Below, in pieces: positions 3,656-24,149 of a stretch of 64,000 bases of DNA. A model generated the notes under the pieces. That model was not told the DNA's origin. It ran no database searches and saw only the letters and a list, made by a program, of their open reading frames with translations. The position numbers and the translations under genes were made by a program. The DNA lies in the NCBI RefSeq assembly GCF_030815145.1, contig NZ_JAUSWJ010000001.1, forward strand, positions 1,302,001-1,366,000, in the 5' to 3' direction. Numbering within the stretch: the first letter of the stretch is position 1; every line of letters starts with the position of its first letter. The DNA comes from Kaistia geumhonensis. GTDB lineage: Bacteria; Pseudomonadota; Alphaproteobacteria; Rhizobiales; Kaistiaceae.

Positions 3656-4834
3656 ATGAAGCCGACAAACCCCGTCTATACCGGCCTGCCCACGACCATC
3701 TTCGAGGTCATGTCGCGGCTCGCCATCGAGCACAAGTCGATCAATCTCGGGCAGGGCTTTCCGGATGTCGACGGACCGGAGGATGTCCGCCGCTTCGCCG
3801 CCGACGCGCTGATGGCCGGCCCCAACCAGTATCCGCCCATGATGGGCGTGCCGGAGCTGCGGCAGGCGGTGGCCGAAGCGAACCGTCGCTTCTATGGTCT
3901 CGACGTCGACTGGAAGAGCGAGGTTCTCGTGACCTCGGGCGCGACCGAAGCGCTCTCCGACATCATCACGGCCGTGATCGAACCCGGCGACGAGGTGGTG
4001 CTGATCGAGCCGCTCTATGACTGCTATCTGCCGCTGGTGCGGCGGGCCGGCGGCATTCCCCGCCTCGTCCGCATCACGCCGCCGGAATGGCGGCTCGATC
4101 TGGCGGCGCTGGAAGCCGCGTTCTCGCCGCGCACCAAGGCGATCCTCATCAACAATCCGATGAACCCGGCCGCCAAGGTGTTCACCCGCGAGGAGCTCGA
4201 GGCCATCGCCGCGCTCTGCGTGCGCTTCGATGCCTATGCGATCTGCGACGAGGTCTACGAGCACATCCTCTTCGACGGCCGTGCGCATATTCCGCTGATG
4301 ACGCTGCCCGGCATGCGGGAGCGGGCGATCCGCATCGGTTCGGCCGGCAAGACCTTTTCCCTGACGGGGTGGAAGGTCGGCTATGTCACGGCCGCGCCGG
4401 CGCTGCTCGACCCGATCGCCAAGGCGCATCAGTTCACGACCTTCACCACGCCGCCCAACCTGCAGAAGGCGGTGGCGTTCGGGCTCGGCAAGGACGACGC
4501 CTATTATGGCGAACTCGGTTCCTCGCTGGCCGCCAAGCGAGACCGTCTGGCCGAGGGGCTCGCGCGCCTCGGCTTCGGGGTCGTGCCCTGCGGCGGCACC
4601 TATTTCGTCACCGCCGACGTGACGCCGCTCGGTCTCTCCGGCGACGACGCCGAACTCTGCCGACGGATGACGGTCGAAGCCGGCGTGACCGCGGTTCCGG
4701 TCTCGGCCTTCTATGCGGGCGAGGCACCGCGCAATTTCGTGCGCTTCTGCTTCTCCAAGCGCGACGAGATCCTCGACGGCGCCGTGGAGCGTCTGGGGAA
4801 CTGGCTTTCGGAGCGGACGCGCGCCGTCGCCTGA
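3656..4834 (+). CDS. Pyridoxal-phosphate aminotransferase, class I/II
   Basis: A 392-residue fold-type I aminotransferase of the aspartate/kynurenine/methionine aminotransferase-like group. Visible signatures are INLGQGFPDVDGPEDVR at the N-terminus, SGATEALSDII for cofactor-phosphate binding, NNPMNPAAKV, and GSAGKTFSLTGWKVGY, which contains the lysine that forms the Schiff base with PLP. The start at 3656 sits behind GCGGAGA and matches the usual family N-terminus. The frame extends upstream without domain content, so longer starts were rejected. The substrate cannot be read from the sequence. It stands alone on the plus strand and converges on the HWE kinase with a 27-base gap. Confidence 0.9.
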   Translation: MKPTNPVYTGLPTTIFEVMSRLAIEHKSINLGQGFPDVDGPEDVRRFAADALMAGPNQYPPMMGVPELRQAVAEANRRFYGLDVDWKSEVLVTSGATEALSDIITAVIEPGDEVVLIEPLYDCYLPLVRRAGGIPRLVRITPPEWRLDLAALEAAFSPRTKAILINNPMNPAAKVFTREELEAIAALCVRFDAYAICDEVYEHILFDGRAHIPLMTLPGMRERAIRIGSAGKTFSLTGWKVGYVTAAPALLDPIAKAHQFTTFTTPPNLQKAVAFGLGKDDAYYGELGSSLAAKRDRLAEGLARLGFGVVPCGGTYFVTADVTPLGLSGDDAELCRRMTVEAGVTAVPVSAFYAGEAPRNFVRFCFSKRDEILDGAVERLGNWLSERTRAVA

Positions 4835-19342: not shown

Positions 19343-19371
19343 GGGGCCGCGCGAGCGGCCCCTTTTCTTTT
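19343..19371 (+). terminator. Rho-independent terminator of the sugar operon
   Basis: A perfect 8-base stem, GGGGCCGC and GCGGCCCC, with a GCGA loop is followed by TTTTCTTTT. It closes the operon that starts near 13.0 kb and may also serve the converging ATP-grasp gene, though the U-run is only on the plus strand. Confidence 0.92.
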
Positions 19372-19394
19372 GCGGTCAGGGTTTTGCCTGCAGC

Positions 19395-20369
19395 TCACGG
19401 TCTCGGCGGCGACCAGTCTTTGTCGGTCAGCGCGTCGCGATGCAGCCGGACGCGCTCGGTCGGCTCCCAGGGGATCGGCGTGCCGTCGCCGCTGTCGATC
19501 GCCCAGAAGGCCTCGGCCATGCGGCGACGGCCGACCGCCAGCGTCTCGTCGCGGATCGGCCAGGATTGCGCCTTGGGCAGCCAGATCGAGGGATTGGTGT
19601 TGATCTCGTAGATGACGGGGCGCCCCGCGACCGTCGCGTGATCGGCGCGGCCATAGTCGATGCCGGCGATGCGAAAGGCCTCGCCGATGACCTCCGGACA
19701 TTCGTTGGCCAACACGCGGCGGTTCTCGTCCCGCGCCAGCCATTCCGGCGGACGAGCGCCACCACGGCCGTATTTCACCATCCAGTGCGGCTCGGTGATG
19801 TGGTGGTCGAGATAGACATGGCCGCCGATATGGAACGATCCGAACTTGCGCCAGAGCCCGTCGCCGGCCGGTTCGCCGCAGAACTCGATCACCACGAGAC
19901 CGCGCCTCGGCCGGCCGGCCCTGACACCCTCGGCGAGGAAGGCGTCGAGTTCCTCCTGAGTCTGGATGAGATCGGAGACGGCGGAGTTGTGGTCGTTGTC
20001 GTTGCGGACGAAAACGGGGAACCGCTCGGGCTGCGGCTCGTCCTCGGCGCGGTAGATGCCGAACGGATTGATGCCGGCGCGCCTCAGCTTGCGCAGCAGC
20101 TCGTAGCGGGTCGGCACGACGGCCGGATCGTTGAGGCATCGCAGCCCCGCCGACCGCAGCGAACGGAAGACATCGGAGGCGAGCAGCAGCTCGAAGGGCG
20201 AGAGGCGTTCGATATCCGTGAAGATCACGGTCGCCGCGGGAACGCGCTGAGCGCGCAGCATCGCGTCATAGCTGAGCGCCATCGTCTTCGGGATCGGGAC
20301 GCCGAGTGCATCGGCGACCAGCGTTCCCACCGTCACCTGGTGACCGCGCGCCGTCAGGAAGAGGATCAT
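19395..20369 (-). CDS. ATP-grasp fold protein, possible peptide ligase
   Basis: A 324-residue protein with an ATP-grasp pattern. It has an N-terminal Rossmann-like part (MILFLTARGHQVTVGTLVADAL), a middle region RFPVFVRNDNDHNSAV where the nucleotide-binding basic residue would lie, IEF, and the metal-binding end GIDYGRADHATVAG then IYEINTNPSIW. The E-I-N-x-N-P run is the ATP-grasp magnesium site. The start at MILF is chosen because the upstream extension has no domain content. ATP-grasp enzymes join a carboxylate to an amine, thiol or hydroxyl through an acyl phosphate. It diverges from a cluster of three short peptide genes and an HExxH peptide-modification enzyme, so a ligase or macrocyclase for those peptides is the working idea. 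It could be an unrelated amino-acid ligase. Confidence 0.7.
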   Translation of the reverse strand: MILFLTARGHQVTVGTLVADALGVPIPKTMALSYDAMLRAQRVPAATVIFTDIERLSPFELLLASDVFRSLRSAGLRCLNDPAVVPTRYELLRKLRRAGINPFGIYRAEDEPQPERFPVFVRNDNDHNSAVSDLIQTQEELDAFLAEGVRAGRPRRGLVVIEFCGEPAGDGLWRKFGSFHIGGHVYLDHHITEPHWMVKYGRGGARPPEWLARDENRRVLANECPEVIGEAFRIAGIDYGRADHATVAGRPVIYEINTNPSIWLPKAQSWPIRDETLAVGRRRMAEAFWAIDSGDGTPIPWEPTERVRLHRDALTDKDWSPPRP

Positions 20370-20547
20370 CGCCGGGCCCCTTGCCGCGCCGACCGGGCGC
20401 CGCGGCGAAGACGATTGCGGAACAGTATGAAGCATGTAACGCTAATCACCGCGGATCGACCGGGGCAAGCTGAGTCATGTCGATTCGCGATCCATCCACG
20501 GCTTGTTCTGTATTGCCGCCACGCATGACTGCAGGGGGAACCGTCAC

Positions 20548-20763
20548 GTGTCCGACATTGCGAAGAATACCCGCGCGAGCCTCGCGGCCGGCAGCCTTTT
20601 CGGCTTTTCCGGCACCGGCCGCAGCACCGCTGCGCGCCGCGCGGGCAAGGAGGCCGGCCTCGACCTTCCAACCGACGAAGGCACGATCCTGGCCGAACTG
20701 AACGGCGTCGAAACGACGCCGGAAGCATCGACGCCGGCCGGCGAGGACCGTTCCGAAGCCTGA
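20548..20763 (+). CDS. Short peptide A, putative RiPP precursor
   Basis: A 71-residue peptide from a GTG start preceded by AGGGGGAA. The start is supported by a gapless alignment of residues 1-38 with peptide B. Shared features at identical positions are T8-R9-A10, L17-F18-G19-F20-S21, R25-S26-T27, A29-R30-R31 and G37-L38. Next comes DEGTILAELN (residues 43-52), a ten-residue block that recurs in peptides B and C, and then a tail rich in Thr, Ser, Glu and Pro (VETTPEASTPAGEDRSEA). There are no cysteines and no signal peptide. The conserved front with a variable Thr/Glu-rich tail fits a leader/core arrangement. The two genes are certainly paralogous; the precursor role is inferred. Confidence 0.75.
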   Translation: MSDIAKNTRASLAAGSLFGFSGTGRSTAARRAGKEAGLDLPTDEGTILAELNGVETTPEASTPAGEDRSEA

Positions 20764-20928
20764 TCTTCGCGGCTGGCGTCCGGTCTTTGCCGGGTCGTCC
20801 GATGACAAGCAATTCGTCTTGCGGGCGTCCATGCAACGTGCCAGCCTGACGAAGTTATCGCGCAATGACGGCCGTGGGGGCTCGGCTGCCATGACATCCC
20901 CGAGACTTTTGAGCATCAGGAGGAAACC

Positions 20929-21156
20929 ATGTCATCCAGGATCGAATCCACCCGCGCCCTTTTGTCGTCTTCGCAGCTGTTCGGCTTCAGCGCCGGCGCG
21001 CGTTCGACGATCGCCCGTCGCGGCATCGACAAAGGCGGCTTGAGCGAAACCCTGCTCGACGAGACGCAGATCCTCGAGACGCTGAACACGGTTCAGACCG
21101 CCGAGGCCGAGCTGCCGGCGAGCGAGGAGCGGCCGGCCTCGACCGAAGCGGCGTAA
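20929..21156 (+). CDS. Short peptide B, putative RiPP precursor, paralogue of A
   Basis: A 75-residue peptide with a strong AGGAGG site 6-7 bases before the ATG. Residues 1-38 align without gaps to peptide A (STRALLSSSQLFGFS, RSTIARR, GGL). The shared block DETQILETLN (residues 44-53) follows and then a divergent tail, TVQTAEAELPASEERPAST. It lies 165 bases after peptide A and before a GC-rich hairpin and peptide C. The strong ribosome site suggests that it is the most abundantly made peptide of the three. Function is unknown outside the inferred precursor role. Confidence 0.78.
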   Translation: MSSRIESTRALLSSSQLFGFSAGARSTIARRGIDKGGLSETLLDETQILETLNTVQTAEAELPASEERPASTEAA

Positions 21157-21167
21157 TCGCATGATCA

Positions 21168-21196
21168 CGCGCGGGATGCTTCGGCGTCCCCGCGCG
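21168..21196 (+). terminator. GC-rich stem-loop between peptide B and peptide C
   Basis: CGCGCGGGA pairs with TCCCCGCGCG around a short TTCG-containing loop. No U-run follows. It probably lowers read-through or stabilises the upstream peptide messages, so that peptides exceed the enzyme downstream. Confidence 0.5.
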
Positions 21197-21281
21197 CCTG
21201 ACGAGAGGCGGCGGCGCGCTGGGCGCTGTCCGCCATTCACATGTGGTCGGTGGACACCGACCGATCCAAAAGGGGCTGAGA

Positions 21282-21404
21282 ATGGAAAAAGTGATGGGGC
21301 TGCCGGTCCAGATGGACGAGGAAGCCGTGATCCTGGCGCTGAATACCGACGCGGCGGAAGAAGCAGCGGTCAACACAGCGGAAGAGACCGCCGCGACTGC
21401 CTGA
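21282..21404 (+). CDS. Short peptide C, putative RiPP precursor lacking the long front part
   Basis: A 40-residue peptide behind AGGGG. Its centre, DEEAVILALN (residues 12-21), matches the block DExx[IV][LI]xxLN of peptides A and B, and the tail NTAEETAATA is again Thr/Glu-rich. It lacks the LFGFS and ARR elements of A and B. It ends 21 bases before the HExxH enzyme gene and should be cotranscribed with it. At 40 codons it would be missed by most gene callers. The recurring block in three separate genes is the main reason to accept it as real. Confidence 0.68.
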   Translation: MEKVMGLPVQMDEEAVILALNTDAAEEAAVNTAEETAATA

Positions 21405-21425
21405 GTCACAGCCTGAAAGCGCGTC

Positions 21426-22445
21426 ATGGTTGAAGAGACGGCAACCGTTCATTTCGGCTATGGCGCGGATCCGATCCGCGCGGCCGCGCTCGACCGGCGC
21501 GTCCGCGGCAATCTCGCGGCGAGCCTCGGCGCAATCGCCGGCGCCCTCGCCAGCAACGGCTTCACCGGCGCTCATGCGCTGCGCGAACTGGCGGACCGGG
21601 TCGAGGCCGGACCTGTCAGGCCGCTCGTCTTCGCGCTCTACACCTCTCTCGTCGATGCGATCCAGTCCGATGACGACGACGCCGTGGCGCGCGGCGTCGA
21701 GAGGCTCGCCGCCGTCGACCGCGACGCGGCGGTGACACTGCGCATCGTCGACCTCTTCGGCGCGGAACTCGGCGCCGAAGCCTCCGAACTCTATGCCATC
21801 CTGCTCGACGACGATCCCGACGCCCCGATCGAAATCAGCGGGGTGGGCAGCGAAGCCTTCGCCTCCGGCCGCGCCCGCGTCCTGGACGCTCTCGCGCTGC
21901 TCGACAGGGCGGCGCCCGAATTCGGAGCCGAAATCCGGGTCTTCTGCAACGAGATCGTCTTCGCCGGCAGCGCGACCGGCTTCGGCGCCAATTCCTTCGC
22001 CAGCGCATCGAGCCCCTATCTGTGGGGCGGCATCCAGCTCGATCCCGCGAGGGCGAACCGGATCGCGCTCGCCGAAACGCTCGTGCACGAGGCTTCGCAC
22101 ACGCTGCTGAACGGCCTCGTCGATGCCGGCGAACTCTCCACAAACCCGAAGGACGCCCGCTATTCCTCCCCGCTCCGGGTCGACGCGCGGCCGATGGACG
22201 GCATCATCCACGCCACCTATGTCCTCGGCCGCATGGGGATGGCGCTTGCCGAGATCGCCGAGGCGGGCGACCTGACGGAGGCGGAGCGGCGGGATGTGGC
22301 GGCGCGCCGGCGCGAGAACGGCATTCTCTTCCAGCAGGGGCTGGCGACGATCCGCGAGCACGGAAAGCTGACGCCGGCAGGCGCGACCGCGCTCGAAGGC
22401 TGCTTCGCGCTCGGAAGCCGCTCCCCCGAAAACGCGGAAGCCTAG
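21426..22445 (+). CDS. HExxH-motif putative peptide-modification enzyme
   Basis: A 339-residue protein with HEASH at residues 221-225, followed by YSSPLRVDARPMDGIIHATYVLG (in two parts, residues 246-268), where H262 is a plausible third metal ligand. The combination of HExxH with a later R-x-x-(S)P-x-R-x-D-x-R-P-x-x-G-x-x-H segment is the pattern of the HExxH putative peptide-modification family. As I recall, that family has recently been described as iron/2-oxoglutarate-linked peptide beta-hydroxylases of RiPP pathways rather than proteases. The N-terminal half (to about residue 130) is helical and acidic. It is the last gene after peptides A, B and C, which are the obvious substrates. Its stop codon interlocks with that of the converging gene (CTAG). 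Confidence 0.8.
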   Translation: MVEETATVHFGYGADPIRAAALDRRVRGNLAASLGAIAGALASNGFTGAHALRELADRVEAGPVRPLVFALYTSLVDAIQSDDDDAVARGVERLAAVDRDAAVTLRIVDLFGAELGAEASELYAILLDDDPDAPIEISGVGSEAFASGRARVLDALALLDRAAPEFGAEIRVFCNEIVFAGSATGFGANSFASASSPYLWGGIQLDPARANRIALAETLVHEASHTLLNGLVDAGELSTNPKDARYSSPLRVDARPMDGIIHATYVLGRMGMALAEIAEAGDLTEAERRDVAARRRENGILFQQGLATIREHGKLTPAGATALEGCFALGSRSPENAEA

Positions 22446-22897
22446 TTCGCCGCCGGCTTCGCCAGCGGGGCGCGGTCGGCCGGCGGCAGCGCCAGCACGG
22501 CATCGAAGGTGCGCGACTGGATCTGCTCCTGCATGGCGCCGACCTCGAGCCGGATCTCGCGCAGATTGGCGTCAATGGCTGCGCGGTCGGGCTCCGGCGC
22601 CGCGGCCAGCGTCGCGAGTTCGGCACGAAGGGTCTTCAGACGGTCGATCCGCGCGACGATATCGGGCTTCAGGCCGCTCAGCGAGGTCTCGATCTTGTCG
22701 ACGGCCTCGGGCGGCAACCGGTCTTTCAGCCAGCGCAGTTCCATGCGCACCACGCGCGGCCCGCCATCGCCCTTGCGCACGCCGATGCGCTCGGTGACGA
22801 AGGCGCCGAGCACGAAGGCGTTGACGGCGAGCGACAGGACGAGCGCCACCCAGAGCCAGGAGATGCGCCGGCGACGCGGCTGAACGGTCCTTGCCAT
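22442..22897 (-). CDS. Membrane-anchored periplasmic sensor, heavy-metal-resistance (CnrX/Spy-like) type
   Basis: A 151-residue protein with a basic N-terminus, one membrane helix (about residues 13-35, WLWVALVLSLAVNAFVLGAFV) and an all-helical periplasmic domain. That domain (ELRWLKDRLPPEAVDKIE and the following heptad-like helices to about residue 135) resembles the periplasmic heavy-metal sensor/Spy-CpxP superfamily. The start codon overlaps the stop of the preceding gene (TGATG). It is third in a sigma/partner/sensor cassette. By analogy with CnrX it may sense a periplasmic signal and control release of the sigma factor. No cluster of His, Met or Cys is visible, so metal sensing is not supported by sequence. 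Confidence 0.78.
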   Translation of the reverse strand: MARTVQPRRRRISWLWVALVLSLAVNAFVLGAFVTERIGVRKGDGGPRVVRMELRWLKDRLPPEAVDKIETSLSGLKPDIVARIDRLKTLRAELATLAAAPEPDRAAIDANLREIRLEVGAMQEQIQSRTFDAVLALPPADRAPLAKPAAN

Positions 22898-23418
22898 CAG
22901 AAGCCGAGCTCGGACGGCCCGAACAGCAGCGGATCGAGCTGAACGATGCTTGCGACGCGCATGTCGTCGTCGCCGGGCGCAAGGAACACGCTCGACGCGC
23001 CGCCGAGCGCGCCGGCGACGAGGACGACCGCGGCCGCTGCCGCGAGCCGCCTTGCCCAGCGCACCGGCTGGGGCGTGATCTGCGCCAGTACGCCGGCGCG
23101 GATGCGGGCCAGCGGTCCGGCCTCGATGCGGGTGTCGAGCGCCGCGGCGGCGACTTCGAGGCGCTGGTCCAGCACCACGGCATCGTCGCGATAGGCACGG
23201 AAGGTGCGATCGGAGAGCAGCGCCGCCCGCGCCCGTTGCGCCAGCGCCGGGTCGGGCCAGAGCGCCGGATCGGGCCCCCACCGGTCAACGGCGTCGCGCA
23301 GGCCTGTCGGTCGCGGGTGAAGCTCCTCGCTCATGTCGCGGCGCGCGTCTGACGCGTCGTCGAAGCCGAACGGGTCCCGGCGATCCCGGGGATGATGGAT
23401 ATCGTCGATGTCGGTCAT
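22897..23418 (-). CDS. Single-pass membrane protein, probable anti-sigma factor
   Basis: A 173-residue protein with an acidic cytoplasmic N-terminal half (RWGPDPALWPDPALAQRARAAL, then helical YRDDAVVLDQRLEVAAAALD). One membrane helix follows near residues 127-146 (LAAAAAVVLVAGALGGASSV), with only a short tail beyond it. The ATG at 23418 is chosen over the TTG four codons upstream because the latter would sit on top of the ribosome site. The gene follows the sigma gene with a 2-base gap. Size, topology and place match a membrane anti-sigma factor of CnrY-like role. No known anti-sigma motif is visible, so this is inference from context. Confidence 0.6.
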   Translation of the reverse strand: MTDIDDIHHPRDRRDPFGFDDASDARRDMSEELHPRPTGLRDAVDRWGPDPALWPDPALAQRARAALLSDRTFRAYRDDAVVLDQRLEVAAAALDTRIEAGPLARIRAGVLAQITPQPVRWARRLAAAAAVVLVAGALGGASSVFLAPGDDDMRVASIVQLDPLLFGPSELGF

Positions 23419-23420
23419 GA

Positions 23421-24149
23421 TCAGGTCCAATCCTCCCCGTCCTCGTCCCTTTGTCCCGCGAGCAGGCCACGCAGGCGCCGCCGGGCTCTTGCGAGCAGGG
23501 ATTCGTAGGCATGTTCGCTCATGCCCATGACGGCCGAGGCTTCCGCCTGGCCGAGTTCCTGGAAATGCGCGAGGACGATCACCGCCCGCTGCCGGTCGGG
23601 CATGCGGTCGAGCGCCTCGTGGACGAGGCGGACATCCTCGATCCGCGAGAGCTGGCGCTCTGGCGACGGCGCGTCGTCCTCTAGCACGTCGTCGAGATCG
23701 TCGATGTCCACATGCGGGCGGCGGCGGCGCAGGCGATCGATCGACAGCCTATAGGCGACCTGGTGCAGCCAGGTGCCGATGCGGGCGCGCGGCTCCCAGG
23801 CGTCGGCATTGCGCCACAGGCGGACGAGCGCCTCCTGCACGACCTCCTCGGCCTCGCCGAGATCGCACAGGACCGCGGCGACGAAACGCGTCAGGCGCGG
23901 CGATTCGGCGGTGATGACGCGGCCGAACGCCTCGTCGTCGCCGGCCGCGACCGCCCGCATCAGCCTGTCGTCGGCGCGGATCGCGGCATCCGCTGCGCTG
24001 TCGCTTCGATCCCCCACGGGTGAATTGTCACCTTTCGTACCGGCCTCTCGGTCGGCCGGATCCACCCTCCCGCCGTCGATCAGACGATAGCGCATCGGCG
24101 GGCTTCGGCCAGCCTCGCTTTTCGCTCCCGATGCGGTGACGGGCGCCAT
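23421..24149 (-). CDS. ECF-type RNA polymerase sigma factor (RpoE-like)
   Basis: A sigma factor of up to 242 residues with regions 2 and 4 only. Region 2 reads VVQEALVRLWRNADAWEPRARIGTWLHQVAYRLSIDRLRR and region 4 reads ELGQAEASAVMGMSEHAYESLLARARRRL. The N-terminal 60 residues before DDRLMRAVAAGDDEAFG are not part of the sigma fold. A later start (ATG at residue 19) is likely. It begins 6 bases after the RND pump gene ends, and the putative anti-sigma and sensor genes follow directly. Pump, sigma, partner and sensor may therefore be one transcript. It is distinct from the SigK-like factor near 7.5 kb. Confidence 0.88.
   Translation of the reverse strand: MAPVTASGAKSEAGRSPPMRYRLIDGGRVDPADREAGTKGDNSPVGDRSDSAADAAIRADDRLMRAVAAGDDEAFGRVITAESPRLTRFVAAVLCDLGEAEEVVQEALVRLWRNADAWEPRARIGTWLHQVAYRLSIDRLRRRRPHVDIDDLDDVLEDDAPSPERQLSRIEDVRLVHEALDRMPDRQRAVIVLAHFQELGQAEASAVMGMSEHAYESLLARARRRLRGLLAGQRDEDGEDWT

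Follow-up and report, generated by a model that had tools for sequence, protein, structure and literature searches.

We describe here a cassette of about 3 kb in a 64,000-nucleotide stretch of the Kaistia geumhonensis genome (contig NZ_JAUSWJ010000001.1, positions 1,302,001 to 1,366,000; hereafter the window), in which the gene for an ATP-grasp ligase diverges from three genes for short peptides (P1, P2 and P3) and one for an enzyme with an HExxH motif. We consider, with a probability of about 0.9, that it is a system for a ribosomally synthesized and post-translationally modified peptide (RiPP). This had been proposed from the letters of the DNA (the sequence-only reading), and it is now supported by the match of the HExxH enzyme to a peptide hydroxylase model, by its homology to the hydroxylase ChlH, by the same layout in 19 genomes, by the gain or loss of the cassette as a unit and by peptide motifs that are common across families. 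In general a RiPP system is expected to have short precursors with a conserved leader and core beside modifying enzymes in a recurring arrangement, and this is what we found, P3 lying outside the motif. More tentatively, the cassette may define a new class of RiPPs with a KxGxK core, made by two enzymes from up to six precursors, in which the ATP-grasp enzyme (amino)acylates lysine side chains and the HExxH enzyme hydroxylates residues of the neighbouring K-x-G segments, repeat by repeat; we hold this to be possible, though on balance not probable.

As judged from its sequence, the 339-residue HExxH protein belongs to the alpha-ketoglutarate (aKG)-HExxH-type peptide hydroxylases. It scores 94.6 bits (cut-off 40) over residues 154-326 against the NCBIfam model TIGR04267 (aKG-HExxH-type peptide beta-hydroxylase), which also matches all seven members of our HExxH alignment (A2); a Pfam search of the window enzyme gave no match. 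A profile of the enzyme matches the solved structures 22nu (9.4e-10) and ChlH (8s5f, 9.5e-9). The two motifs pointed out in the sequence-only reading are present, HEASH at residues 221-225 and RPMDGIIH (R-P-x-x-G-x-x-H) at 255-262, and its placement of the protein in a peptide-modification family is borne out by these matches. Both structures align with the enzyme over the HExxH and the R-D-RP..G segment, the last histidine being shared by 8s5f only, as 22nu has Gln there. H221, E222, H225, R255, P256, G259 and H262 are invariant in the seven aligned enzymes. A plain zinc protease was rejected on the strength of the TIGR04267 and 8s5f matches. According to PMC12636437 and PMC13060819, the residues hydroxylated by characterised aKG-HExxH members are Asp, His, Gln or Pro, and backbone cleavage is a further activity of PflC/PosC, so that the target residue is not readable from the enzyme alone. 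In the G024 assembly (L020, about 3870-3960; G and L numbers are our handles), the HExxH frame has stop codons near the N-terminus, and the gene may be damaged or start later there.

All five open reading frames (ORFs) were recovered where the sequence-only reading had placed them. Ratios of nonsynonymous to synonymous substitution (dN/dS) between the window genome and its nearest relative, G013, were 0.44 for P1, 0.47 for P2, 0.29 for P3 and 0.12 for each enzyme; in view of these values below 1 and of the conservation of the motif we rejected chance ORFs. By eye, ribosome-binding-like sequences precede P1, P2 and P3, the strongest being the AGGAGG of P2. The peptides had been called paralogous, which holds for P1 and P2 (48% identity, E 6e-12) and is weak for P3, matched by neither of them at E 0.01. 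P1 consists of the leader SLFGF, the core region STAARRAGKEAG, then TDEGTILAELN and an acidic tail, and P2 of the leader QLFGF, the core region STIARRGIDKGG, then LDETQILETLN and an acidic tail. The cores proper are TAARRAGK and TIARRGIDK, with Arg in place of the Lys and Val of relatives, and the second block after them follows DExxILxxLN. P3 has only a comparable DEEAVILALN segment and an acidic tail, with neither an LLGF-like leader nor a K/R-x-G-K core. Thus, on sequence grounds, the window cassette is a divergent member of its family, with R-R-G/A for K-V-G and a third peptide lacking leader and core.

In an alignment of 27 ORFs the N-terminal leader resembles LDxxKLLGF, with LLGY or LFGF among nearer relatives, and the core has K-x-G followed by Lys; most precursors have an LLGF-like leader and a KxGxK-like core, often repeated. 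Examples are GAKVGVKPP in the 39-residue peptide of L057, a 39-residue precursor being found in three genomes, GLKMGGK in L082 and L083 and four AKIG repeats in L021, with the variants MVGQK in G155 and KEGK in G741. Precursor-like ORFs occur in all 19 genomes with the adjacent pair of enzymes (paired genomes), one to six in each (six in G1163; four peptides in G013). We compared the motif [KR][VIMLR]G in 18 precursors of paired loci with seven peptides that accompany only an HExxH enzyme, P3 and its counterpart being left out. The motif is present in 16/18 paired precursors, and a lysine follows within four residues in 29 of 30 motifs from paired loci versus two of eight from HExxH-only loci. 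Behind the leader, 29 K/R-x-G-K motifs were observed versus a mean of 2.0 (maximum 7) in 2000 shuffles. Among eleven peptides found later, nine fit the [KR][VIMLR]G-Lys pattern and all eleven fit when any middle residue is allowed (26 motifs versus 2.9 after shuffling, maximum 10). A strict leader-plus-core pattern was found in 13 of 76 gap ORFs versus 7 of 3941 other ORFs, counts that show specificity only, since the pattern had been fitted to these peptides; all seven of the other ORFs sit in HExxH loci without an adjacent ATP-grasp gene.

The sequence-only reading had asked for a neighbourhood survey, and the ATP-grasp gene, short peptides and HExxH gene do occur together, in the same divergent layout, in 19 genomes (14 from a first scan and 5 added later), one of them a gammaproteobacterial metagenome-assembled genome (L032) and the other 18 in the class of the window genome, the class covered by nearly all searches. 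The 19 should not be counted as independent gains, because flanking genes are shared by the window genome and G013, by L020 and L022, by L136, L138 and L139, and by L137, L143 and L144. In one family we take the neighbours to be pdxJ-, acpS- and lepB-like genes in L136, L138 and L139 and a murA-like gene, which the cassette precedes, in L137, L143 and L144. The ATP-grasp family was seen in 35 genomes: 15 of 397 from the order (two weak), 4 more from a draw of 385 from the class, 3 from 398 of the phylum, 9 from 248 of one family, 3 met through the HExxH enzyme, and L032. As it was the HExxH enzyme that led to G021, G024 and G026, the proportion of 19/35 is biased. Among the 248 genomes of one family, 10 carry the ATP-grasp gene, 9 the HExxH gene and 6 both (0.36 expected), adjacent in 6/6 (Fisher p 6e-8, kinship not corrected); this table is unbiased if both searches drew the same 248 genomes, the group and number being the same and the lists agreeing where shown. 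Five of the nine new ATP-grasp genomes have an adjacent HExxH gene, and all five have LLGF-like precursors with KxG-K; in the other four no such peptide was seen by eye, with two ORFs of L131 passing a loose filter. Genomes of the G373 family (18) and the G741 family (10) gave no new case.

These observations bear on the possibility that the ATP-grasp enzyme makes a separate small molecule or glycan-linked product, that only the HExxH enzyme modifies the peptides and that the neighbourhood is inherited without joint function. Such a separation would fit the ATP-grasp relatives that lie, without an HExxH gene, near glycosyltransferases, DUF6065 proteins and cytochromes P450 and in viral contigs, and also the 8 of 11 HExxH copies without an adjacent ATP-grasp gene that nevertheless have such a peptide (L018, one of two in L023, L024, L027, L028, L157, L158 and L160, the cores of L158 being KRG with no Lys after it); we found no precursor beside the first HExxH of L023 or beside those of L025 and L159, and L029 and L030 (fusion-like with radical S-adenosylmethionine (SAM) proteins, with short HExxH fragments) were left out of the eleven. 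The same 8 of 11 mean that HExxH homologues away from the ATP-grasp gene still neighbour these peptides, their absence there being what the sequence-only reading would have taken as evidence against it. However, the shared divergent layout in 19 genomes (with fewer independent cases), the association in the 248 genomes and the lack of any other widely common gene in 18 paired loci make separate functions very improbable. In a survey of 4 to 20 kb around each of these 18 loci (BLAST E 1e-8; G013 not included), made with a simple gene caller that overlooked some genes, no third family was common to more than 3. We rejected a linked protease or exporter, as the families that do recur look by eye like housekeeping or ordinary transport; a protease differing from locus to locus would escape this survey.

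The trees point in the same direction. In the ATP-grasp tree (33 rows, quick method) 15 paired rows fall inside a set of 22 with 7 unpaired ones, and the paired and unpaired labels change 4 times versus 11 when shuffled; in the HExxH tree (23 rows) they change 3 times versus 7.4. By eye, the two trees group most paired loci alike, keeping together the window, L017, L019, L020, L022 and L026, and also L032, L073, L081, L082 and L083, and they disagree on L021, L057 and L058; L031 (a duplicate of L017) and L063 (a weak ATP-grasp) were left out. The trees support co-inheritance without proving it, because near copies make labels cluster. Around the paired cassette of L019 (4041-11501) there are an AMP-binding enzyme, a P450, an acyl carrier protein and a glycosyltransferase, which could be a larger cluster.

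Within the genus the cassette was found in the window genome and G013, and is absent from the 12 other genomes, which gave no HExxH match and, in the stretch fetched at the site, no match to any cassette protein. All 14 genomes carry the flanking genes, for a Gfo/Idh oxidoreductase and a sigma factor. The closest junction is in L112, where window positions 19370 and 22439 correspond to points 40 bp apart. In 7 of the 12 (G001, G002, G003, G004, G005, G007 and G009) a distance of 1.0 to 1.1 kb separates the flanks, versus 4.1 kb in the window, which leaves room for the two short genes next to the sigma factor. In G006, G008, G011 and G012 the site is filled by 1.0 to 2.8 kb more of other sequence, and in G010 the flanks are 22 kb apart, 4 kb of which were read. 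The parts of the cassette thus come or go together.

The ATP-grasp protein has 324 residues counted from a conserved MILF start (346 from an upstream ATG at 20435). Its EINTNP, the E-I-N-x-N-P site noted earlier, lies at residues 255-260, and D243, E255 and N257 are invariant in 14 aligned proteins. Neither this protein nor its group matches any Pfam or NCBIfam family, and so no RimK/LysX sequence family, although Pfam includes a RimK model; the sole profile match in the PDB is D-Ala-D-Ala ligase (0.016). The predicted structure is closest to RimK (17.4) and LysX (17.0), at 14-16% identity, in a model with a mean predicted local distance difference test (pLDDT) score of 74, which suggests a RimK/LysX fold; an earlier model of the protein alone had a pLDDT of 32. 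Other members of the family have different surroundings. L059 (5853-8635) carries three of them in tandem without an HExxH gene. There are glycan-type neighbours in L056 (a DUF6065 protein, with a similar protein in L054) and L064 (polysaccharide export genes), and these three ATP-grasps are possibly a carbohydrate-directed branch. A cytochrome P450 adjoins the ATP-grasp gene in L055 (by Pfam) and L062 (by eye), the latter with a GH3-family protein as well. Relatives 32-37% identical occur in six IMG/VR viral contigs (L145-L150), in which neither the fetched stretches nor a separate HExxH search of viral contigs gave an HExxH match; by eye, L145 and L148 also contain a glycosyltransferase-like ORF. 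A plasmid search returned two ATP-grasp records, with no HExxH annotated nearby, and three distant HExxH records.

We infer that both enzymes act on the same peptides, and with this the order of steps, the sites and the chemistry that follow. The precursors would be P1 and P2, and perhaps P3. The LxGF/Y-type leader may dock both enzymes. The aKG- and Fe-dependent HExxH enzyme would hydroxylate a residue within every core's K/R-x-G segment, presumably at the beta-carbon. The RimK/LysX-like ATP-grasp enzyme would activate a carboxylate with ATP and join the activated acid, perhaps a free amino acid or another small acid, to the conserved lysine after the glycine. Leader removal and export would be left to unlinked cell proteins, as is likewise supposed for leader removal from PflA in PMC12636437. 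That the first enzyme hydroxylates the K-x-G segment and the second ligates something to the next lysine is a plausible proposal, to which we give somewhat less than even odds.

A different use of the same fold would be that of a C-terminal ligase, with the adduct placed at the precursor C-terminus, as expected from RimK and LysX, the nearest folds, which act on a protein carboxylate. But the C-termini of the 18 precursors (P3 and its counterpart left out) vary (SEA, EAA, KPT, AVR, KID, GSD, TKA, IKP) whereas the lysine after K-x-G is mostly conserved, and with a C-terminal ligase alone the repeated cores would be pointless, so that we regard this as unlikely. These two points, varied C-termini and repeated cores, lead us to prefer lysine, and the frequent repeats (four in L021) favour chemistry at each repeat over chemistry at a single C-terminus. 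It is also conceivable, if rather more doubtful, that the ATP-grasp enzyme crosslinks Asp or Glu to Lys, Ser or Thr through a lactam or ester, as in graspetides, with the HExxH enzyme hydroxylating beside the crosslink as the 2-oxoglutarate (2OG) oxygenase does in corallotide. The window peptides themselves carry acids; among the 18 paired precursors, though, Asp and Glu are absent behind the leader in two (G018a and gamma), and G373 has a single such residue there. By eye the alignment shows no acid at a common position, and the window ATP-grasp matches no NCBIfam model. Because of the precursors devoid of these acids we rejected a classic graspetide as the general form of the family, and prefer ligation to lysine to an internal crosslink.

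Several findings weigh against our proposal of lysine acylation beside K-x-G hydroxylation. Four of five ATP-grasp models are poor (pLDDT 49 or less), and the substrate of RimK and LysX is a protein carboxylate. Most motif patterns were written once the peptides had been seen, and of the 11 later peptides only 7 conform to the strict leader pattern. In P1 and P2 the K-V-G of relatives is replaced by R-R-[AG], P3 and its counterpart have neither leader nor core, and the G155 core (MVGQK) lacks the first lysine. The second lysine also occurs without an adjacent ATP-grasp gene in G168, G025 and L157 (HExxH-only, KVGDIK), and one of the eight HExxH-only motifs (KMG of G019a) precedes the leader. 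Finally, 16 of the 35 ATP-grasp genomes have no adjacent HExxH gene.

The positions of the features are collected in the table. P1 lies 178 bp from the start of the ATP-grasp gene, the next intergenic gaps measure 165, 125 and 21 bp, and the G+C content of the cassette (0.677) is about equal to that of the window (0.683), in a genome of one contig of 4.59 Mb. Beside the cassette, at 22442-24095, there are genes for a Metal_resist protein (PF13801) and, by eye, a probable anti-sigma factor, a sigma factor and then a resistance-nodulation-division (RND) pump; these genes are outside the cassette.

Table. Features of the cassette, in positions of the window.
Feature	Position	Strand	Basis
ATP-grasp ligase, 324 aa, GRAD...EINTNP	19395..20369	-	ORF; relatives in 19 paired genomes; model
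Candidate precursor P1, 71 aa, GTG start	20548..20763	+	P2 paralogue; dN/dS; motif alignment
Candidate precursor P2, 75 aa	20929..21156	+	AGGAGG before start; dN/dS; motif
Short peptide P3, 40 aa	21282..21404	+	kept in nearest relative; dN/dS
Predicted aKG-HExxH-type peptide hydroxylase, 339 aa	21426..22445	+	NCBIfam; profile matches to solved structures
Whole cassette, in window genome and G013	19371..22438	.	flank comparison

The pairing of an ATP-grasp with an HExxH enzyme in a RiPP system was not found among the papers listed by the literature searches, most subscription papers lying outside them, and the cassette is most likely a RiPP system of known enzyme superfamilies in a pairing that those searches did not turn up. 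It is compact, with two enzymes and short precursors, its ATP-grasp group is not recognised by Pfam or NCBIfam, and its core is simple and often repeated. It could reveal how a RimK-like ligase alters a RiPP and how aKG-HExxH enzymes act in the absence of radical SAM or multinuclear non-heme iron-dependent oxidase (MNIO) partners.

Among known systems, RimK and LysX/ArgX resemble the window ATP-grasp in predicted fold, with the low identity given above and no match to a sequence family. The HExxH and R-D-RP..G segments of the window enzyme align with those of ChlH/ChlBH and the radical-SAM-linked aKG-HExxH hydroxylases (8s5f, 22nu). However, the window cassette has no radical SAM gene, and the hydroxylation by those enzymes needs a preinstalled cyclophane, according to PMC12636437. 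In the same source, PflC/PosC of Pseudomonas are like the window enzyme in belonging to the same HExxH family, with no radical SAM fusion, a small adjoining precursor and no protease gene nearby, but a nitrile-hydratase-like leader, Gln repeats and ARMD characterise the PflA/PosA precursor, and the partner enzyme is an MNIO-nitroreductase fusion instead of an ATP-grasp; PMC7726476 describes the pos cluster gene only. In the nitrilobacillin and biphenomycin pathways an aKG-HExxH enzyme also performs one tailoring step of a RiPP, although PMC13060819, PMC12257519 and PMC12707348 give as its partners an MNIO, an asparagine synthetase-like enzyme and a B12-dependent radical SAM enzyme, with precursors other than those of the window. 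The corallotide graspetide (PMC13097080) likewise combines an ATP-grasp ligase and a 2OG oxygenase on a Lys-bearing ribosomal peptide, but its oxygenase is described as a divergent 2OG-Fe(II) oxygenase and not as an HExxH enzyme, and its linkage needs an Asp or Glu that is not conserved in the cassette family.

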